Virus record (IMG/VR): IMGVR_UViG_3300046690_000329 | Span: 1 to 27,778 of that record | Strand: one strand, 5' to 3' | Length of the DNA: 27,778 bases | Source of the DNA: a virus | The notes under the pieces: model-generated | Databases searched by the model: none | What the model saw: only the letters and a program-made list of their open reading frames with translations | What the model was told of the DNA's origin: nothing | Part shown: positions 13,636-20,136 of the stretch, in pieces | Numbering within the stretch: position 1 is the first letter of the stretch | How the letters are laid out: each line of letters begins with the position of its first letter | Translations under genes and position numbers: made by a program

Positions 13636-14078
13636 GTCGTCTCCATCTGTGGTTGTGTGGTGCCCATCTTCACTGCGCGCGCCGGCTCCCATAGCTCATA
13701 GGCGCGATCCCATGCTGCGAACTTTTCCTCGCGGGTAGCATTACCCTGGTCGAGCCATTGATGGCACCAGTGGCATCCCGGCACAGTGCGTGTGTGGCTT
13801 GCCTTGAGGCCCATGCCCTTTCCGTCGCGTGACTGGTTGCTATGGCACGGCACAACAATGTCTGGGGATGCTTCGCCGCCACAGATGACGCGCAGATAGC
13901 AGGCTTCACCGCGGCATGCCTCCAGATACTTCGATCCCTCGGCGACGGTCGACTTCTTCCGCGCGCGCTTCTTCATCGGCTTGCGCTCCAGTTCCTTCGT
14001 CGCGCTGCGAAAGCTGCTGAACGAGCCGCCGGGCTTGCGCTTGAATGCGCTCGGCTTGAGCGGTGTTGATCGCTTCAT
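13632..14078 (-). CDS. YbcO/DUF1364-like nuclease
   Basis: The 148-residue protein has a basic N-terminus rich in Lys and Arg, then the YbcO/DUF1364 pattern: YLEACRGEACYLR, an ICGGEA Cys, PCHSNQSRDGKGMGLK, and PGCHWCHQWLDQG. These Cys and His residues form the zinc/HNH-type site of this phage recombination nuclease family. The ATG at 14078 overlaps the upstream stop and has GGGGG before it, which is better than the longer start at 14126. It lies with NinB and RusA homologues, so a role in phage recombination or DNA processing is likely. Confidence 0.85.
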   Translation of the reverse strand: MKRSTPLKPSAFKRKPGGSFSSFRSATKELERKPMKKRARKKSTVAEGSKYLEACRGEACYLRVICGGEASPDIVVPCHSNQSRDGKGMGLKASHTRTVPGCHWCHQWLDQGNATREEKFAAWDRAYELWEPARAVKMGTTQPQMETT

Positions 14079-14470
14079 CGCGCCCCCGCCAGCAATCCAG
14101 CGAACGGATGCGCCCGACCATCGCAAGCAGTCCTACGCGCCCTGTACACGCCAGCATATTTGCGGTAATGACGAGCCGATGCCTGTTTGCGTGCTTCGAC
14201 GAGATCCGGCTGCGGCTTGTCGCGCTTGTCGCCGGCCCGGTAAACCGCGCCCCACAATCCGCTCTTGCCGACCATGCGGTGCCAGTCGCAGATGTAGACC
14301 TTCTTCGGCGTCTCGGCGCGCAAGATTCGCAGATGCCGGCGCACGCCAGTCTCGGCGATGCCGACGAGCGCTTCGAGTTCCTTGGCGGTCAGCGCTTCCT
14401 GCTCGAGCAGTTCGAGGATCTTGTTGCGCGTGGCGTGGCGCATGCTGTTGGCGTTGAGCTTGCCGGTCAT
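14075..14470 (-). CDS. Winged-helix DNA-binding protein
   Basis: The 131-residue protein has a clear helix-turn-helix (RNKILELLEQEALTAKELEA, then GIAETGVRRHLRIL) typical of ArsR-like winged helices at residues 13-60. It continues with VYICDWHRM and a basic C-terminal tail (RHYRKYAGVYRARR). GGAG lies eight bases before the ATG at 14470, which overlaps the methyltransferase stop. It is probably a DNA-binding regulator or accessory protein; the target is unknown. Confidence 0.75.
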   Translation of the reverse strand: MTGKLNANSMRHATRNKILELLEQEALTAKELEALVGIAETGVRRHLRILRAETPKKVYICDWHRMVGKSGLWGAVYRAGDKRDKPQPDLVEARKQASARHYRKYAGVYRARRTACDGRAHPFAGLLAGAR

Positions 14471-15495
14471 GCTGCGATCTCCATCATTGCTTCGTCGGCC
14501 GCTCTAATGAAAGTCGCCGCCGCTTCAGCATTAATGGCGTTTCCGTAGGCGCGTAGTCGTCCCATTCTGGAGGGAGCCCCATCAACCAGCGGGAATGTGC
14601 CGGGTTCAACTGGCCGCCACTTTCCATCTCGGCATCCGATCCAGTCAGCATCTCTCCAGAAACCGTTAGTCGGGCCGGCTGATTCGTGGCGCACAATTCG
14701 ACCGTCTTGCGGCTGCTGTCCGTGTTGCCCGCGGCGTTGTATCCCTTCTGCGCTGGCGTCCCAGCCATCGGCGTTGGCCAGCCGGCGAACGTCGCTACAT
14801 GATTCAAGCTCACCGCCACCTTGCGGCCGTCGGGCGTCTTCCCCGTCACGCTCAAGCCCTCGAACGACTGCGATCCCTTGCTGTTGCCGACTGTCGGTGT
14901 CGGCCATCCCGCCAACCACGCCACGCGGCCGAGCAGTGAGTTCAGTGGCACGTTGGCGCACTCCGCGCCGTCCTTCCAGTCCCGCGTTGTCGGAGTCGGC
15001 CATCCAGTAGAGGCGATCTCTGATGTGCGGTGCGCCGACGCCCGCAGACGGGAACGGCGTCGCCCCGACCCGGTATCCCACGCCTTCCAGGTCAGTTTGT
15101 ACAAGGTCGATCCAAGGCTCTGCATCCTTGCTCGCAACTTGCTCTCCAAGGATGACTGAAGGGCGGCACTGGCTAATGAGGTGGAAAAATGCGGGCCAAA
15201 GGTGCCGCTCGTCATCAAACCCAGTTCCTTCGCCTGCCTGGCTGAAAGGTTGGCACGGACAGGAACCGGTCCAAACAGATCGATCGTCAGCCCATCCGGC
15301 TTGTCGAAGTGCGCGAGACCATACGCCAATCCCGGCGAAGAAATGGCACTGTGTGTATCCCCGAAGGTCGTCCGGTCTAACATCCTCGATACTCCGTTCG
15401 TCTACGTCGCCGGCGGCAATGTGGCCGGCCGCTATCAGATTGCGCAACCACTGCGCAGCGTATGGGTCGATCTCGTTGTAATAGGCTCCGCTCAT
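14467..15495 (-). CDS. C5-cytosine DNA methyltransferase
   Basis: The 342-residue enzyme has FAGIG (53-57, SAM site), the catalytic PCQPFS with Cys81, EQV (118-120, usual ENV), RDRLYW (159-164) and the late YGNAI (317-321). Between the last two, where a target-recognition domain is expected, it has degenerate repeats of M/L-A-D/N-x-D (MADSDN, MADTDS, LANADG) in Gly/Arg/Gln-rich sequence. GAGGA lies nine bases upstream of the ATG. It probably protects phage DNA from restriction. A second long frame runs through it on the same strand. Confidence 0.92.
   Translation of the reverse strand: MSGAYYNEIDPYAAQWLRNLIAAGHIAAGDVDERSIEDVRPDDLRGYTQCHFFAGIGVWSRALRQAGWADDRSVWTGSCPCQPFSQAGEGTGFDDERHLWPAFFHLISQCRPSVILGEQVASKDAEPWIDLVQTDLEGVGYRVGATPFPSAGVGAPHIRDRLYWMADSDNAGLEGRRGVRQRATELTARPRGVVGGMADTDSRQQQGIAVVRGLERDGEDARRPQGGGELESCSDVRRLANADGWDASAEGIQRRGQHGQQPQDGRIVRHESAGPTNGFWRDADWIGCRDGKWRPVEPGTFPLVDGAPSRMGRLRAYGNAINAEAAATFIRAADEAMMEIAA
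14484..15383 (-). CDS. Possible overlapping gene inside the cytosine methyltransferase
   Basis: A 299-codon frame starts at ATG 15383 with GGAG eight bases upstream and runs in another register through the methyltransferase gene. The product contains three regularly placed repeats of GWPTP (GWPTPTTRDWKDG, GWPTPTVGNSKG, GWPTPMAGTP) and ends with LNPAHSRWLMGLPPEWDDY. Proteins with these signatures are, to my memory, common in phage annotations, but they may all be shadows of the same methyltransferase family. I see no catalytic motif. Whether it is translated is open. Confidence 0.4.
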   Translation of the reverse strand: MLDRTTFGDTHSAISSPGLAYGLAHFDKPDGLTIDLFGPVPVRANLSARQAKELGLMTSGTFGPHFSTSLASAALQSSLESKLRARMQSLGSTLYKLTWKAWDTGSGRRRSRLRASAHRTSEIASTGWPTPTTRDWKDGAECANVPLNSLLGRVAWLAGWPTPTVGNSKGSQSFEGLSVTGKTPDGRKVAVSLNHVATFAGWPTPMAGTPAQKGYNAAGNTDSSRKTVELCATNQPARLTVSGEMLTGSDAEMESGGQLNPAHSRWLMGLPPEWDDYAPTETPLMLKRRRLSLERPTKQ

Positions 15496-15908
15496 GCTGC
15501 CAGTTCCTCATATCCGGGCGGCGCACTGAGCGGGATGCCATTCTCGACAAACCATGCTTGAACATATTCCAGAAGGCTGTTCATGCGCTTCTGGCCCATG
15601 CTTGCGCTGCTCTCCCTGACGTTTACAAATTCACCTTCCAGACCGGGGATGACGTCGGCGCCGATGCCGGCCGCAATAGCGTGACCGCTGATGAAAAGAA
15701 CCTTCCACTGTTGAGCAGTGAAGCGGCGCCCCATATACGTCGCCTCTTTTGCTGCGACTCCGAACAGGTGATGGAGATAGCTGTTTTGTGCGATGCTGCG
15801 CGTGCGCTCTTGCAGTACGAGCATGTGACCATCGGGCCTCTTGTGCACAGCATCGGCTGCCATGCGGCGATTGTGCGGCGTGAGAAAGATCGTTAATTTG
15901 TCGCTCAT
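15492..15908 (-). CDS. ninB: NinB-like recombination protein
   Basis: The 138-residue protein matches NinB of lambda-like phages: a short start (MSDKLTIFLTPHNRR), then RTRSIAQNSYLHHLFGVAA, RRFTAQQWKVLF and a C-terminal YVQAWFVENGI segment. NinB (Orf in lambda) binds ssDNA and SSB and assists recombination. The ATG at 15908 shares one base with the upstream stop and has GGGGG before it. It lies directly upstream of the methyltransferase and downstream of RusA, forming a recombination cluster. Confidence 0.88.
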   Translation of the reverse strand: MSDKLTIFLTPHNRRMAADAVHKRPDGHMLVLQERTRSIAQNSYLHHLFGVAAKEATYMGRRFTAQQWKVLFISGHAIAAGIGADVIPGLEGEFVNVRESSASMGQKRMNSLLEYVQAWFVENGIPLSAPPGYEELAA

Positions 15909-16282
15909 CACGCCCCCATCACCATGACGCCGAGCCGGCCGCCCTTGACGATCTCGCCGCGGCATACCAGCAGCTCGTCAATTTGGCTGTCGTCGTCATA
16001 TACGCCGGCATGCGTCAGCGCATCGAGCGCCGCCTTCACACGATTGTCAATATCGGCAATGCGTCGATCACGCATGCTCACATGCAGCGCCACGCATAAC
16101 CGGGCGGAACCGAACTTGATCGCGTTGCGCTCGGCGACGATCTCGGCGACACGCTTGCGGAAGTCTTTGCCTTCTGCCGTTATGTACATGCCACGCGGCG
16201 ACTTGCGCCAGTAGCAATTGATCGAGGGGGGCAGGGGAAGCGTCAGGAACTGAGCAACGCCGGATAATGGATGGTCTGTCAT
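15908..16282 (-). CDS. rusA: RusA-like Holliday junction resolvase
   Basis: The 124-residue protein has the RusA signature: TLPLPPSINCYWR, ITAEGKDFR, and the catalytic carboxylates in RRIADIDNRVKAALDAL (Asp77, Asp79) with VYDDDSQI (Asp96-98). It should cut four-way junctions during phage recombination and before packaging. The start at ATG 16282 overlaps the preceding stop and is preferred to the longer reading. It pairs functionally with NinB, the YbcO-like nuclease and the Sak4-like ATPase. Confidence 0.93.
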   Translation of the reverse strand: MTDHPLSGVAQFLTLPLPPSINCYWRKSPRGMYITAEGKDFRKRVAEIVAERNAIKFGSARLCVALHVSMRDRRIADIDNRVKAALDALTHAGVYDDDSQIDELLVCRGEIVKGGRLGVMVMGA

Positions 16283-16461
16283 GCTTTCTTCTCGGAACGG
16301 ATATACGCCCATAACTCTTTCTTCGCCCGCTCAGCCGCTGCATCGCCGGCCGCCTGCCGCACGCGCTCGACAATCGCGCTTGCTTTCGCAAACTGTCCGC
16401 TTCGCCCGTCGCGCACTGCGGCGAGGAAGCGCGCTAAACAGTCGGCTTGCGTCAGCACCAT
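16279..16461 (-). CDS. Small helical phage protein
   Basis: The 60-residue protein is helical and basic at its end (AKKELWAYIRSEKKA). It starts at ATG 16461 inside the end of the preceding short frame and overlaps RusA by four bases at its stop. The ribosome site is weak. No family is recognised. Position and overlaps support coding; the function is unknown. Confidence 0.6.
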   Translation of the reverse strand: MVLTQADCLARFLAAVRDGRSGQFAKASAIVERVRQAAGDAAAERAKKELWAYIRSEKKA

Positions 16462-16565
16462 GGAATAGCCGCGAATGAAACGGTGCGCAGGATGTACCAG
16501 CAGCCATGATCCACAGAGCCGTACTCGCTATAGGCGTCGAACTTGATGCGGATCATGGTGTGCAT
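16452..16565 (-). CDS. 37-residue possible gene
   Basis: The frame from ATG 16565 (or 16556) to TGA at 16452 encodes a peptide with FDAYSEYGSVDHGCWYILRT. The composition looks protein-like, and it fills the gap between Gp157 and the next gene, overlapping the latter by ten bases. No good ribosome site is visible and there is no recognisable family, so confidence is modest. Confidence 0.45.
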   Translation of the reverse strand: MHTMIRIKFDAYSEYGSVDHGCWYILRTVSFAAIPWC

Positions 16566-16576
16566 GGCATGCTCGG

Positions 16577-17071
16577 TTAAACGCGGATCTCGAGCCGATC
16601 CTTGACGATCAGGCGTGCGCCGGCGATTTCCTGCCCTGCTTCGAGCGCTTTCTTGATCTCGGTCTTGTTCGGCTCGGTCTTGACGCGCATGTATTGCTGC
16701 GGCACGGCGTCTGCATCGACGACTTCGACAGACTTGTCGCGGCCTTCGCGCAGGGCAATCGTCACCAGCGGGTTTTCGATGCGCAGGCGTTGCGCAGACT
16801 TCATGTTCTGTTGCAGATAGCCTTCCAGGCGCTCGGCGCGGGCTTCCCACTTGCGCGCGCGCTCGACGATCTCTGCGGCTGCGTCGCGCATCATCTTTGC
16901 GTTAGCGGCGATTTCGCGCGAGATCAGGGCGCAGCCGACAGCCTTCTTGTCGAAGTCCTCGGCGCAGCCTTCAAGCGTGTCCTCGATGGTCGTGTCGTCG
17001 AAACCTGCATCCATCAGGTCGTTGCGGATTGCCAGCAGCTCGCCGGTCAACTGGTAGAGTGGTGCGTTCAT
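16577..17071 (-). CDS. Gp157-like protein
   Basis: The 164-residue protein matches the phage Gp157 family. It starts with PLYQLTGELLAIRNDL, continues with a helical coiled-coil middle (AAEIVERARKWEARAERLEGYL), and ends with TEPNKTEIKKALEAGQEI and GARLIV. Family members lie in early replication/recombination operons; the founding streptococcal phage protein was linked to phage resistance. AAGGA precedes the ATG at 17071, excluding the much longer reading from 17233. It is the first gene of the unit driven from 17118. Confidence 0.88.
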   Translation of the reverse strand: MNAPLYQLTGELLAIRNDLMDAGFDDTTIEDTLEGCAEDFDKKAVGCALISREIAANAKMMRDAAAEIVERARKWEARAERLEGYLQQNMKSAQRLRIENPLVTIALREGRDKSVEVVDADAVPQQYMRVKTEPNKTEIKKALEAGQEIAGARLIVKDRLEIRV

Positions 17072-17117
17072 TTCGGTTCCTTTTGATTGTGTGTGCTGCG
17101 GTATCGGTGCATGCATA

Positions 17118-17156
17118 AAGATACCATGACGGTATCTGTAGCGGTCAAATTTTTTT
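17118..17156 (-). promoter_or_regulatory. Leftward promoter/operator for the recombination unit (17071 to 13049)
   Basis: GATACC-ATGAC-GGTATC (17120-17136) is a perfect operator. On the minus strand a run of A and ATTTGACC (17143-17156) precedes it. TTGACC (17143-17148) is a good -35, though 19 bp from TATCTT (17118-17123). A half-site GGTATC lies nearby around 17100. Confidence 0.65.
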
Positions 17157-17387
17157 ACGTCGCAGGCCGCGCCATTCGAAGCCGCCTTGGCGCTCTGCTT
17201 CACTGCTTGGCCGGTGCTTGCACGACTCGGCACCGTGTGGCGTCTGCGCCGTGTATGACCATCGATTGCCGGTCCAGTAGCTGAACAGGCGAAAGATGGT
17301 CTTGCCGTTCGGCTTGCGGCGCACTTCGTAGACGCCGATGTGCAGCGGCTTTATGCTCTTGTCAAACCAGTCTGTGAACTCTTGCAT
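17145..17387 (-). CDS. Small basic phage protein
   Basis: The 80-residue protein contains LHIGVYEVRRKPNGKT and FRLFSYWTGNRWSY, followed by a basic tail ending RRKKI that runs into the next operator. AGGAGA lies seven bases upstream of the ATG at 17387. Its Trp/Tyr-rich centre suggests a compact folded core, but no family is named. It is the last gene of the unit that begins at 19332. A GC-only hairpin (17406-17423, 7-bp stem) separates it from the SSB-tailed gene. Confidence 0.7.
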   Translation of the reverse strand: MQEFTDWFDKSIKPLHIGVYEVRRKPNGKTIFRLFSYWTGNRWSYTAQTPHGAESCKHRPSSEAERQGGFEWRGLRRKKI

Positions 17388-17441
17388 GTGAGGTCTCCTG
17401 GCTGACGCCGGCGCGGGCCGGCGACGCGGTTTAGTGCGTGG

Positions 17442-18077
17442 TCAGAATGGGATGTCGTCGTCCATTTCATCGAATCCGCCGCCAGCAGGCGCCGATGCAT
17501 GGCGCGTCGCTGCGGGTTGCGCTGCCGGCGCATTACGCAACGGACGATGACGCAGGCTTTGGATCATCTTCGGAAGCTGTTGCGCGTTCACCTTCTTGTC
17601 GAGGATTTCCGAAGCCATGAGTTCGCTGCTGGCTTCGAAGAAAGCGGCCGGCACGACCTTCGTTACGACTGATCCGTCGTTTTTCAGGTAGTCCTCCGTC
17701 TCGAACAGGATGCCGACCGGCTTGTCCATCAGATCAAGGAACACGTTCGCGTTGAATTCCTGAACCTGTTGCGTGTCGCGATCCCATTTCTTGACGACCG
17801 CTTCGCTCGGCGCGATGTTCTTGACGCGCAAGCACGTCATCAGCGCTTGCAGTTGCTTGAAGCCGAAGAGTTCTTTCTCTGAAGCGTTGAAAGTCCAGAG
17901 GGTGAAGTTCGCCGTCTGCTTGTCATCGGTCACGAACGCGAAGTCGATGCCGCGCGTGCCCTTGGAGCTTTGAATGTCCTCGGCGCGCGTGAATTGGCCG
18001 ACGTATTTGCCGATCTCGTTGATGCGCTCGCTACGCTGCTCAGCCTGGCGTGCTGCTTGTGCGTTCAATGCGTACAT
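17442..18077 (-). CDS. ssDNA-binding-like replication protein with an SSB-type C-terminal tail
   Basis: The 211-residue protein resembles the DUF669 group of phage proteins. It has an N-terminal GKYVGQFTRAEDIQSSKGTRG segment, a middle with TLWTFNASEKELFG, and VFLDLMDKPVGILFETEDY. It ends FDEMDDDIPF; the DDDIPF ending is identical to that of E. coli SSB, where it recruits replication and repair proteins. The Pro/Ala-rich region before it would act as a linker. It lies immediately downstream of the Sak4-like ATPase. An SSB-like role in recombination is inferred. Confidence 0.75.
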   Translation of the reverse strand: MYALNAQAARQAEQRSERINEIGKYVGQFTRAEDIQSSKGTRGIDFAFVTDDKQTANFTLWTFNASEKELFGFKQLQALMTCLRVKNIAPSEAVVKKWDRDTQQVQEFNANVFLDLMDKPVGILFETEDYLKNDGSVVTKVVPAAFFEASSELMASEILDKKVNAQQLPKMIQSLRHRPLRNAPAAQPAATRHASAPAGGGFDEMDDDIPF

Positions 18078-18142
18078 TTGATGTTGTCCTGTAGAAGTAA
18101 GGTTCGTTTGTTCTGGCTGTTCTAGGCTCAGAATTGAGGCAA

Positions 18143-18793
18143 TTAAGCGGCTTGCCGGATGCCGTAATACTCTGCAATCGCTTCGTCGACCGCACGCAGA
18201 TCGTTCGGAACTCGCTCGTCTTCGAACAGGCCCATCGGGCTTTTTACGGTGTCGCGCCCGCTGTTGCGCGTCGTGAACGTGTATTCGCCGTCGACAACGT
18301 CGGTCTTGAGTACGATCGTGAACAGGCCTTCGACCGTGATCTTCTCGTCGAGAAGGCGTCCGATAGTCTTGGCTTTAGTGTGGCCCGAATCGAGCTGTTC
18401 GCTGTGCGTCAGGATGTAGACGCGCACGTCATCAGCAAGGTTGTTCGCAGCCGTCAGCACATCCCATGCGTGCTTGCCGATCTCGGTGAACTTCTGAAAC
18501 CCGGTTTCCGAGCTGCGGCGCATGAACTCGTTCGCGAGCAGATACTGGAAGTCGTCGATGACGATCGTCTTGCGCTTTGTCTTCCCCAGTAGGTCGACGA
18601 TTCGGTTCGCGTCGTCAGTGACGATCATGTTCCCGGTCGTGTTCTCCCTGGACAGATACGACCAACCTTTAGCCCGAAAGGGCAGGGGCTTCTTAACGAC
18701 CTGAATCAAAAGGGTCTGCGAAGGGTCCAGATTGCGAAGCGAAGTGCTCTTTCCTGTCCCGCTTTGTCCGATAACCAGCGTTGCTGTGCTCAT
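18143..18793 (-). CDS. Sak4-like RecA-fold ATPase (single-strand annealing recombinase)
   Basis: The 216-residue protein has Walker A GQSGTGKS (9-16) and Walker B TIVIDD (76-81). The late LTHSEQLDSGHTKAKTIGR and KSPMGLFEDE elements are characteristic of phage AAA_24/Sak4 proteins. Sak4 proteins act as recombinases together with an ssDNA-binding protein, here probably the neighbour at 17442. AGGAG is seven bases upstream of the ATG at 18793. The start lies within another frame (18693-18878). Confidence 0.87.
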   Translation of the reverse strand: MSTATLVIGQSGTGKSTSLRNLDPSQTLLIQVVKKPLPFRAKGWSYLSRENTTGNMIVTDDANRIVDLLGKTKRKTIVIDDFQYLLANEFMRRSSETGFQKFTEIGKHAWDVLTAANNLADDVRVYILTHSEQLDSGHTKAKTIGRLLDEKITVEGLFTIVLKTDVVDGEYTFTTRNSGRDTVKSPMGLFEDERVPNDLRAVDEAIAEYYGIRQAA

Positions 18794-18878
18794 GGCATTT
18801 CTCCTGTTCTTGCAATTCGTGCTGTTCGTAAAGTTCGAGTTCTTGCTGCCACTGCCAGTCGTCGTCTGGCTCGTACAT
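18693..18878 (-). CDS. Small acidic protein overlapping the Sak4-like gene
   Basis: The 61-residue frame starts at ATG 18878, sharing a base with the upstream stop, with AAGG nearby. It encodes YEPDDDWQWQQELELYEQHE, an acidic Gln/Glu-rich helix, then a basic tail. The last 101 bases lie inside the Sak4-like gene in another register. The first half looks genuinely coding because it fills the gap and is coupled upstream; the overlapping half may be a passive extension. The function is unknown. Confidence 0.5.
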   Translation of the reverse strand: MYEPDDDWQWQQELELYEQHELQEQEKCHEHSNAGYRTKRDRKEHFASQSGPFADPFDSGR

Positions 18879-19114
18879 CACGACACCTTGCAGCGTTGGT
18901 ATTGGCGAGACACATTCGGCGGGACATACGCACCGCTGATCCGAACGCGGGGCTGAACACCGCGACGAGCGAGATCGGCTTTGGCTGCACGCTGGCGCTG
19001 CTCAGTGCGCGCGCCGAGTGCTTTGTATTGGCTGTCGATGATCTCGGCTTGCGAGAGGCGCACATTCGTCTGGACGTGGCGCAGGTCATTCAGTGACTTG
19101 GCGATCAGTTGCAT
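18878..19114 (-). CDS. Hypothetical basic helical protein
   Basis: The 78-residue product from ATG 19114 overlaps the end of the upstream gene by ten bases. It is helical and basic (LSQAEIIDSQYKALGARTEQ, then RAAKADLARRGVQPRVRISG). The longer reading from 19210 adds residues lying antisense to nothing useful and no better ribosome site. No family is recognised. It is part of the unit containing the Sak4-like recombinase. Confidence 0.6.
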   Translation of the reverse strand: MQLIAKSLNDLRHVQTNVRLSQAEIIDSQYKALGARTEQRQRAAKADLARRGVQPRVRISGAYVPPNVSRQYQRCKVS

Positions 19115-19332
19115 ACCGGGCTCGCATGGAAAGTGAGGACGATCATCACGGCGAGAGCCATTGCGCACGCGCCAGCAGAGAAAGCGAGAAACAGGTCGTT
19201 GACCTTGCAAACGCTAGCTACCACGGTATCCGTCGCGTGCAAATTTTTTTCCGCAACGTCGGCCTGACGCGGGCGGAAAATCGCTGCGGAGCATAATAAT
19301 AACGCGGACTTCAGTTGCGATGCAGTGTTCAT
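19105..19332 (-). CDS. Small membrane protein, first gene of the Sak4 unit
   Basis: The 75-residue product has a hydrophobic segment near residues 48-67 (FLAFSAGACAMALAVMIVLT). The N-terminal part, MNTASQLKSALLLCSAAIF, could be a first membrane segment or signal. The promoter at 19386 lies about 55 bases upstream of the ATG at 19332. A second operator-like sequence falls inside the frame at about codon 30, so the true start could be later. The function is unknown. Confidence 0.55.
   Translation of the reverse strand: MNTASQLKSALLLCSAAIFRPRQADVAEKNLHATDTVVASVCKVNDLFLAFSAGACAMALAVMIVLTFHASPVCN
19217..19250 (-). promoter_or_regulatory. Degenerate operator copy with A-tract
   Basis: On the minus strand an A-run and TTTGCACGCGACGGATACC (19225-19250) match the flanks at 2283 and 17118, but the second operator half is lost (GTGGTAGC). 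It lies inside the small membrane-protein frame, just as the copy at 2283 lies inside the outer-membrane gene. Confidence 0.45.
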
Positions 19333-19385
19333 GATGATTTCGTTCCGTTCGTGGTTTTGGTTTGTGTTTTGTCCTGCTGAGATGA

Positions 19386-19414
19386 AGGATACTAAAACGG
19401 TATCTGTAACGCAA
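19386..19414 (-). promoter_or_regulatory. Leftward promoter/operator for the Sak4 unit (19332 to 17145)
   Basis: TTGCGT (19409-19414) and TATCCT (19386-19391) on the minus strand are 17 bp apart. The operator GATACT-AAAAC-GGTATC (19388-19404) overlaps the -10. It closely resembles the promoter at 2423. Confidence 0.75.
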
Positions 19415-19444
19415 GTGCTTTTTGCGAGAAAAATGTGCGCGCGC

Positions 19445-19645
19445 CTACAAACGCATCCACGTCTGATAGTCGGCTTCGCTCAGTCGATCGCCTGGAAGCG
19501 CTGCCTTTGCGTCTGGCTTGTGCGCGTCGCAATACTCGCGGCCTTCGTGCTGCCAATGCGCCTTCACGCGCGGGCCTAACTTGCGGCACACGCAGCAGTA
19601 GCGCCAGCCGCCGCGCTCGATCATGTCTTTCGTGATCCGCTTCAT
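19445..19645 (-). CDS. Small zinc-finger-like protein
   Basis: The 66-residue protein from ATG 19645 overlaps the HD-hydrolase stop by four bases. It has RYCCVCRKLGP and HEGREYCDAHK, a CxxC...CxxH arrangement typical of a single zinc site. The end, LSEADYQTWMRL, is helical. It is the last gene of the unit from 21474. The likely role is nucleic-acid or protein binding; no family is named. Confidence 0.65.
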   Translation of the reverse strand: MKRITKDMIERGGWRYCCVCRKLGPRVKAHWQHEGREYCDAHKPDAKAALPGDRLSEADYQTWMRL

Positions 19646-20136
19646 GGCTGGGCCGCCTGTGAGCGAGCGAGCTGCCACAGCCGCGGATCGGCCTTGGTCA
19701 TGGCGTCCAACAGAAGCCGCTTTTCTTCGAGATAGGTGACAGCGAACTTGGGATCGTGCTTGACGATGCTCGACGTGTTGCTGATTAGGTCGGCGCACTT
19801 GATCGTCTGTATCCAAGCAGGCACCGCAGCCAGTCGGGCCCGTGACGCAGCCTTGCGCGCGGCGCGGTTCCCCGTTTCCAGGTCAGACAGCAGAATGACG
19901 CCGGCCGTCACGATCTCGCCGAACTGCTCGCGCAAGGTTTCGGCAGACACGCCCTGATCTTCGATGCAATCGTGCAGCCACGCAACGGCTACCGCGTGAT
20001 CGGTATCTAGCGCGACCGTCGCCACGATGCCCGCCACCTCGGCCAGATGGTCGACATACGGGTTGCCGGTGTACTTGCGCACCTGATCCTTGTGCGCTTC
20101 ACGCGCAAACATCATGGCTCTGTATGCGATGCTCAT
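19642..20136 (-). CDS. HD-domain hydrolase of the SpoT/MESH1 type
   Basis: The 164-residue protein has the (p)ppGpp-hydrolase HD pattern: YVDHLAEVA (His30), AWLHDCIED (His55-Asp56, Glu59-Asp60), LLSDLETGN and IKCADLISNTSSI (Asp116, Asn120). Family members hydrolyse (p)ppGpp or related nucleotides using a metal. There is no synthetase or TGS domain, as in small alarmone hydrolases. The ATG at 20136 shares a base with the upstream stop and has GGGAG upstream. A role in blunting the host stringent response is inferred. Confidence 0.82.
   Translation of the reverse strand: MSIAYRAMMFAREAHKDQVRKYTGNPYVDHLAEVAGIVATVALDTDHAVAVAWLHDCIEDQGVSAETLREQFGEIVTAGVILLSDLETGNRAARKAASRARLAAVPAWIQTIKCADLISNTSSIVKHDPKFAVTYLEEKRLLLDAMTKADPRLWQLARSQAAQP

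Follow-up and report, generated by a model that had tools for sequence, protein, structure and literature searches.

The window, a stretch of 27,778 bases from a virus record in IMG/VR, carries two adjacent minus-strand genes, sak4 (18143..18793) and ssb (17442..18077), which very probably make up the core recombination machinery of a tailed phage, with the C-terminal tail of the single-strand DNA-binding protein (SSB) docking Sak4 on coated ssDNA for annealing. The upstream gene encodes a 216-aa RecA-core ATPase and single-strand annealing protein that matched the Sak4 family profile phrog_2872 over residues 1-214 (E 1.7e-88), the PHROG family into which HkaL, the Sak4 of Escherichia phage HK620, also falls; the two proteins share 51% identity over 215 aa. 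It has a Walker A motif (GQSGTGKS) and a Walker B-like motif (TIVIDD), and it is a RecA core alone, aligning end to end with the HK620 Sak4, which itself lacks the RecA C-terminal domain; by these sequence measures it is a member of the published Sak4 annealase family. The original prediction had a Sak4-like ATPase followed by the ssb gene in one unit, and this agrees with their shared strand and the stop-to-start gap of 65 bases; as we found no promoter-like site in window positions 14000-20000, the transcription unit is drawn from spacing only.

Downstream of ssb, on the same strand, there is a gene for an 80-aa small protein (17145..17387; phrog_26541, E 2e-11), followed by a Gp157-family gene (16577..17071; PF05565, E 1.2e-34; phrog_253 'Mu Gam-like end protection', E 7.4e-36), the start of which was set at the Met preceding the Pfam match, and by genes for a RusA-like Holliday junction resolvase (15908..16312; PF05866, E 9.6e-12) and a NinB/Orf recombination mediator (15492..15965; PF05772, E 2e-28; phrog_72), with a DNA methyltransferase gene beyond NinB/Orf in this series. 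Elsewhere, the window includes integrase, O-like initiator and DnaC-like loader genes.

The product of ssb, a 211-aa phage SSB and putative partner of Sak4, matched phrog_743 (single strand DNA binding protein; E 6.3e-25), which also holds the HK620 SSB. A pairwise BLASTP match between the two proteins had an E-value of 8e-8 (30% over 87 aa), and an hhalign comparison of a profile of nine sequences (the window SSB and its relatives) with a four-sequence profile of the HK620 group extended over nearly the whole length (99.9%, E 9.6e-33); on this sequence evidence, the window SSB is a member of the HK620-type phage SSB family. The HK620-type SSB is assigned to Pfam DUF669 in PMC5928155; the window SSB did not match DUF669, the HK620 SSB itself was equally unmatched, and the BFVD fold matches included DUF669 proteins. 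No solved structure related by sequence was found for either the window Sak4 or the window SSB. An AlphaFold2 model of the SSB built from 19 sequences, which replaced an earlier weak model from 5 sequences (pLDDT 57.6), had a mean pLDDT of 83.6, with blocks of about 85–97 across residues 21-180 and a core mostly above 90, and fell below 50 over residues 185-211 (17445..17525, minus strand), which include the linker and tail. The best solved fold matches of the core (residues 20-150; 17628..18020, minus strand) were to PrgE (VIA Z 9.8 and 9.6), clearly ahead of Rim1 (6.5), RPA (6.2) and PriB (5.9), these last being middling values; a VIA Z of 5-6.5 alone may reflect just a common arrangement. 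The protein is thus predicted to have an OB-type barrel and a disordered tail rather than a fold unrelated to OB proteins, and the proposal that the phage supplies its own SSB-like partner for Sak4 gains support from family, predicted fold and gene neighbourhood, as well as from what is published for HK620 (PMC5928155).

Translation of 17442-18077 (minus strand) confirmed the predicted DDDIPF end behind a Pro/Ala-rich linker, the product closing with GGGFDEMDDDIPF (PAGGGFDEMDDDIPF); PMC5928155 gives DDDIPF as the C-terminus of E. coli SSB, in agreement with the prediction. A coding pattern specifying DDDIPF followed by a stop codon was found at a single place in the window, within ssb, and was absent from all 100 shuffled windows; on this count a chance origin of the tail was rejected. 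Beyond these six residues, the tail SAPAGGGFDEMDDDIPF (residues 195-211; 17445..17495, minus strand) matches Burkholderiaceae chromosomal-type SSBs at 17/17 positions in 31 of the 56 named loci L050-L105; because the tail pattern itself served to retrieve part of these loci, this proportion is not a frequency. The exact 17-mer is common to many chromosomal SSBs of Burkholderia, Paraburkholderia and Caballeronia. In 17 genomes carrying or near the phage SSB family, whose retrieval made no use of the tail pattern for the SSB itself, the PF00436 SSB ended MDDDIPF in 17/17 and had the exact 17-mer in 5/17. Because host SSB tails match that of the phage, its host is likely a Burkholderiaceae-like bacterium.

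For HK620, the pairing of Sak4 with an SSB, the part played by the tip in docking and its resemblance to DDDIPF have all been published already. In Hutinet et al. 2018 (PMC5928155), the HK620 pair was purified, up to 80% of sak4 genes are said to adjoin such an ssb, and the SSB boosted both Sak4 annealing and recombineering; removal of its last six residues abolished binding of Sak4 to SSB-covered ssDNA, and its tip, NDYPPF, was likened to the DDDIPF of E. coli SSB. As the HK620 tip is NDYPPF and not DDDIPF, the exact host tip is dispensable for Sak4 docking. The window pair resembles HkaL-HkaK of HK620 in its two families and their order, in an acidic tail ending in Phe and in a core-only RecA ATPase; it differs in the tip, in a distant SSB core (the 30% match over 87 aa given above), in a 65-base gap where the HK620 genes overlap, and in being followed by Gp157, RusA and NinB genes where HK620 has abc2. 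We found no publication on a Burkholderia-type member of this pair in a literature search for which most subscription journals were beyond reach.

Several other phages have Sak4 directly followed by a phrog_743-type SSB, these being Acidovorax phage AP1, Pseudomonas phage phiPSA1, Acinetobacter phage PhabP_R1 and Stenotrophomonas phage S72, with SSBs 34-40% identical to that of the window and tips of DDDSIPF plus an extension, DDIPFD, DDDLPF and DDDLNF, respectively; in PhabP_R1, as in the window, a Gp157-family gene comes next after ssb. The bacterial SSB of Burkholderiaceae (PF00436) shares the general OB fold and the identical 17-residue tail, but its OB core has no detectable profile homology to the window SSB. 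An OB fold with an acidic C-terminal tail is also described for T7 gp2.5 and the Enc34 ORF6 (DUF2815) SSBs (PMC5686142); the window SSB was unmatched to this family in general profile searches, which did not target it.

By homology to the HK620 experiments, we envisage that the OB fold of the SSB, assigned from its family and model, would coat phage ssDNA, that the DNA-bound SSB would expose its acidic tail, that the last residues of this tail would dock Sak4 on the coated strand, and that docked Sak4, with ATP, would anneal complementary strands. Going by their annotations, the neighbouring Gp157, RusA and NinB/Orf proteins may serve to protect ends, resolve junctions and mediate recombination. 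Since the phage tip equals that of the host SSB, host SSB readers and the phage NinB are candidates for binding it too, and NinB/Orf may be a second reader of the window SSB; E. coli SSB binds both lambda Orf and YbcN, with the SSB tail needed for the YbcN contact alone, according to PMC4118853. In the same way, the identity of the host SSB tail makes it plausible that host PriA, RecO or exonuclease I would be recruited, as predicted. The window genes bring an annealase-SSB pairing already characterised elsewhere into phages with Burkholderia-like hosts; the tail cannot be told apart from the host's own, which raises the question of whether one peptide serves both a phage annealase and host repair proteins. 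Sak4-SSB pairs have practical value for recombineering outside E. coli.

Given this match, we weighed other accounts of the protein and its tail. That the phage simply bears a bacterial-type SSB (PF00436) is scarcely credible: an NCBIfam Burkholderia-type SSB model does match the protein, but in a manner limited to residues 183-210, and we rejected a bacterial identity as PF00436 was unmatched at E up to 1, the OB core fitting phrog_743 instead. We likewise disfavoured a recent capture of the tail through recombination with a host ssb gene, which is very improbable even though the exact peptide match to host tails is long and includes the linker residues PAGGG, because the codon differences are as large as chance would give; nucleotide identity to the 31 host tails averaged 39.6/51 (best 42), against 41.1 expected from independent synonymous codons and 45.9 between hosts. 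Moreover, close relatives vary by single residues (GGFDD, GGGFDD, GGGFDE), so an exact match can arise in small steps. Neither did phage tails lie nearer to the SSB of their own host than to that of another in 16 genomes with both proteins (113/176 identities versus a shuffled mean of 113.9), a comparison of low power as host tails are near-uniform. From the codon divergence and the lack of an own-host signal, the shared tip looks to be maintained at the protein level, neither recently captured nor tuned to each host.

The own-host comparison, within its low power, also bears on the proposal that the tail serves chiefly as an adaptor to the host, mimicking the host SSB tip for PriA, RecO, exonuclease I and others, with Sak4 docking secondary. 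This proposal draws on the 17/17 identity of the terminal residues to Burkholderiaceae host SSBs and on the lack of a PF00436 SSB in the window record, which is possibly a fragment; we nevertheless consider it unlikely, since HK620-type phages carry NDYPPF although the SSB of their E. coli host ends DDDIPF (PMC5928155), and five of the six phage copies in one bacterial genome (G051) differ at their ends from the host SSB there, which terminates in MDDDIPF. Docking of Sak4 by the SSB tail is the reading we prefer. For this SSB family, the one protein shown to read such a tail is Sak4 itself, in HK620 (PMC5928155).

To place the window pair among its relatives, we surveyed loci with a profile-found SSB, and Sak4 lay within the examined stretch in 130 of 149, a set with many near-copies, above all HK620-like; in 3 of the 130 the Sak4 match was 600 bases off. 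Phe is the last residue of 84 of the 92 distinct complete SSBs, and 61 of the 92 have Pro-Phe at the end, a count that leaves out three proteins cut by a contig end (L011, L013, L170) and one scoring below 50 (L252). A further protein (L109), which matches phrog_743 and not the SSB search profile, was uncounted; it ends LFGKK and has a remote Sak4 relative upstream. The SSB family was found in 15/398 genomes of a family-level draw and 4/369 of a class-wide draw, and full-length matches in genus draws were in 2/144, 0/58 and 0/65 genomes, with three more matches to the tail only.

A terminal Pro-Phe was present in 59 of 79 distinct SSBs with Sak4 versus 2 of 13 without it, and was mostly lost in two SSB clades in which Sak4 is replaced by other recombination genes. 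The examined neighbours at Sak4-less loci were mostly other recombination genes, e.g., RecT and a RecE/YqaJ-type exonuclease stand in place of Sak4 at one locus of the L221 type, a clade with tips of YGGDNF, YGGDSF and YGSDSF versus NDYPPF in its Sak4-bearing sisters. One of the 13 (L120) has another Sak4-like ATPase upstream (phrog_1366/phrog_124) and retains DIPF. The pattern is weakened by SSBs beside Sak4 that do not end in PF (20/79) or in F (7/79), and by some HK620-side SSBs that have Sak4 and end QDF, NDF or SDF. On a tree from which L239 was excluded for its disrupted end, there were two independent supported contrasts, toward Pro-Phe loss or neutral and none opposite, a number with which a sign test cannot reach significance.

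The genome G051 (2.8 Mb) has six phage SSB copies of this family (L259-L264), partnered by Sak4 in one case, RecT-like genes in three and others in two. Its Sak4-linked copy ends MDDDIPF, and the five others end EEAIPF, DDDISF (twice), DDDIQF and DDDILF; upstream of the copies lacking Sak4 are RecT-like genes (L124, L125, L127), phrog_3657 with a RecE-like exonuclease (L117), and an SbcC-like gene at a locus where no recombinase was seen upstream (L126). As Pro-Phe was mostly lost where sak4 is replaced, and as one ten-residue extension (APAYARAAWS) occurs on two unrelated SSB families, we offer the tentative suggestion, more doubtful than probable, that the tip of phage SSBs acts as an interchangeable address tag, dictated by partners in the gene unit and not by the OB fold that bears it. 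Loci with swapped partners are a natural series for probing selection on the tail.

The APAYARAAWS extension directly follows a DDIPF-type motif, in phage SSBs of the phrog_743 type (L107, L265-L269, L271, L273) and of the PF00436 type (L270, L272, L274), with a near-match in L028; in this position it would bury the carboxylate of the terminal Phe. Sak4 lay beside the SSB in all five of the phrog_743-type loci tested (L107, L265, L267, L271, L273), and the PF00436-type L270 has a RecT-like gene, judged by eye. DNA identity was equally low across families (32.2/42) and within the canonical one. Further phage or prophage-like SSBs also run past the IPF motif, with RDPLxYRGAHL in L041 and L155 and other extensions in L020, L111, L128, L146 and L150, a second IPF occurring downstream in L128 and L150. 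L041 belongs to Acidovorax phage AP1 (OM049504.1), where the SSB is encoded in the frame spanning 894-1589; the SSB is absent from the annotation of that record, which has instead a 421-aa protein in another frame (L041:866-2131).
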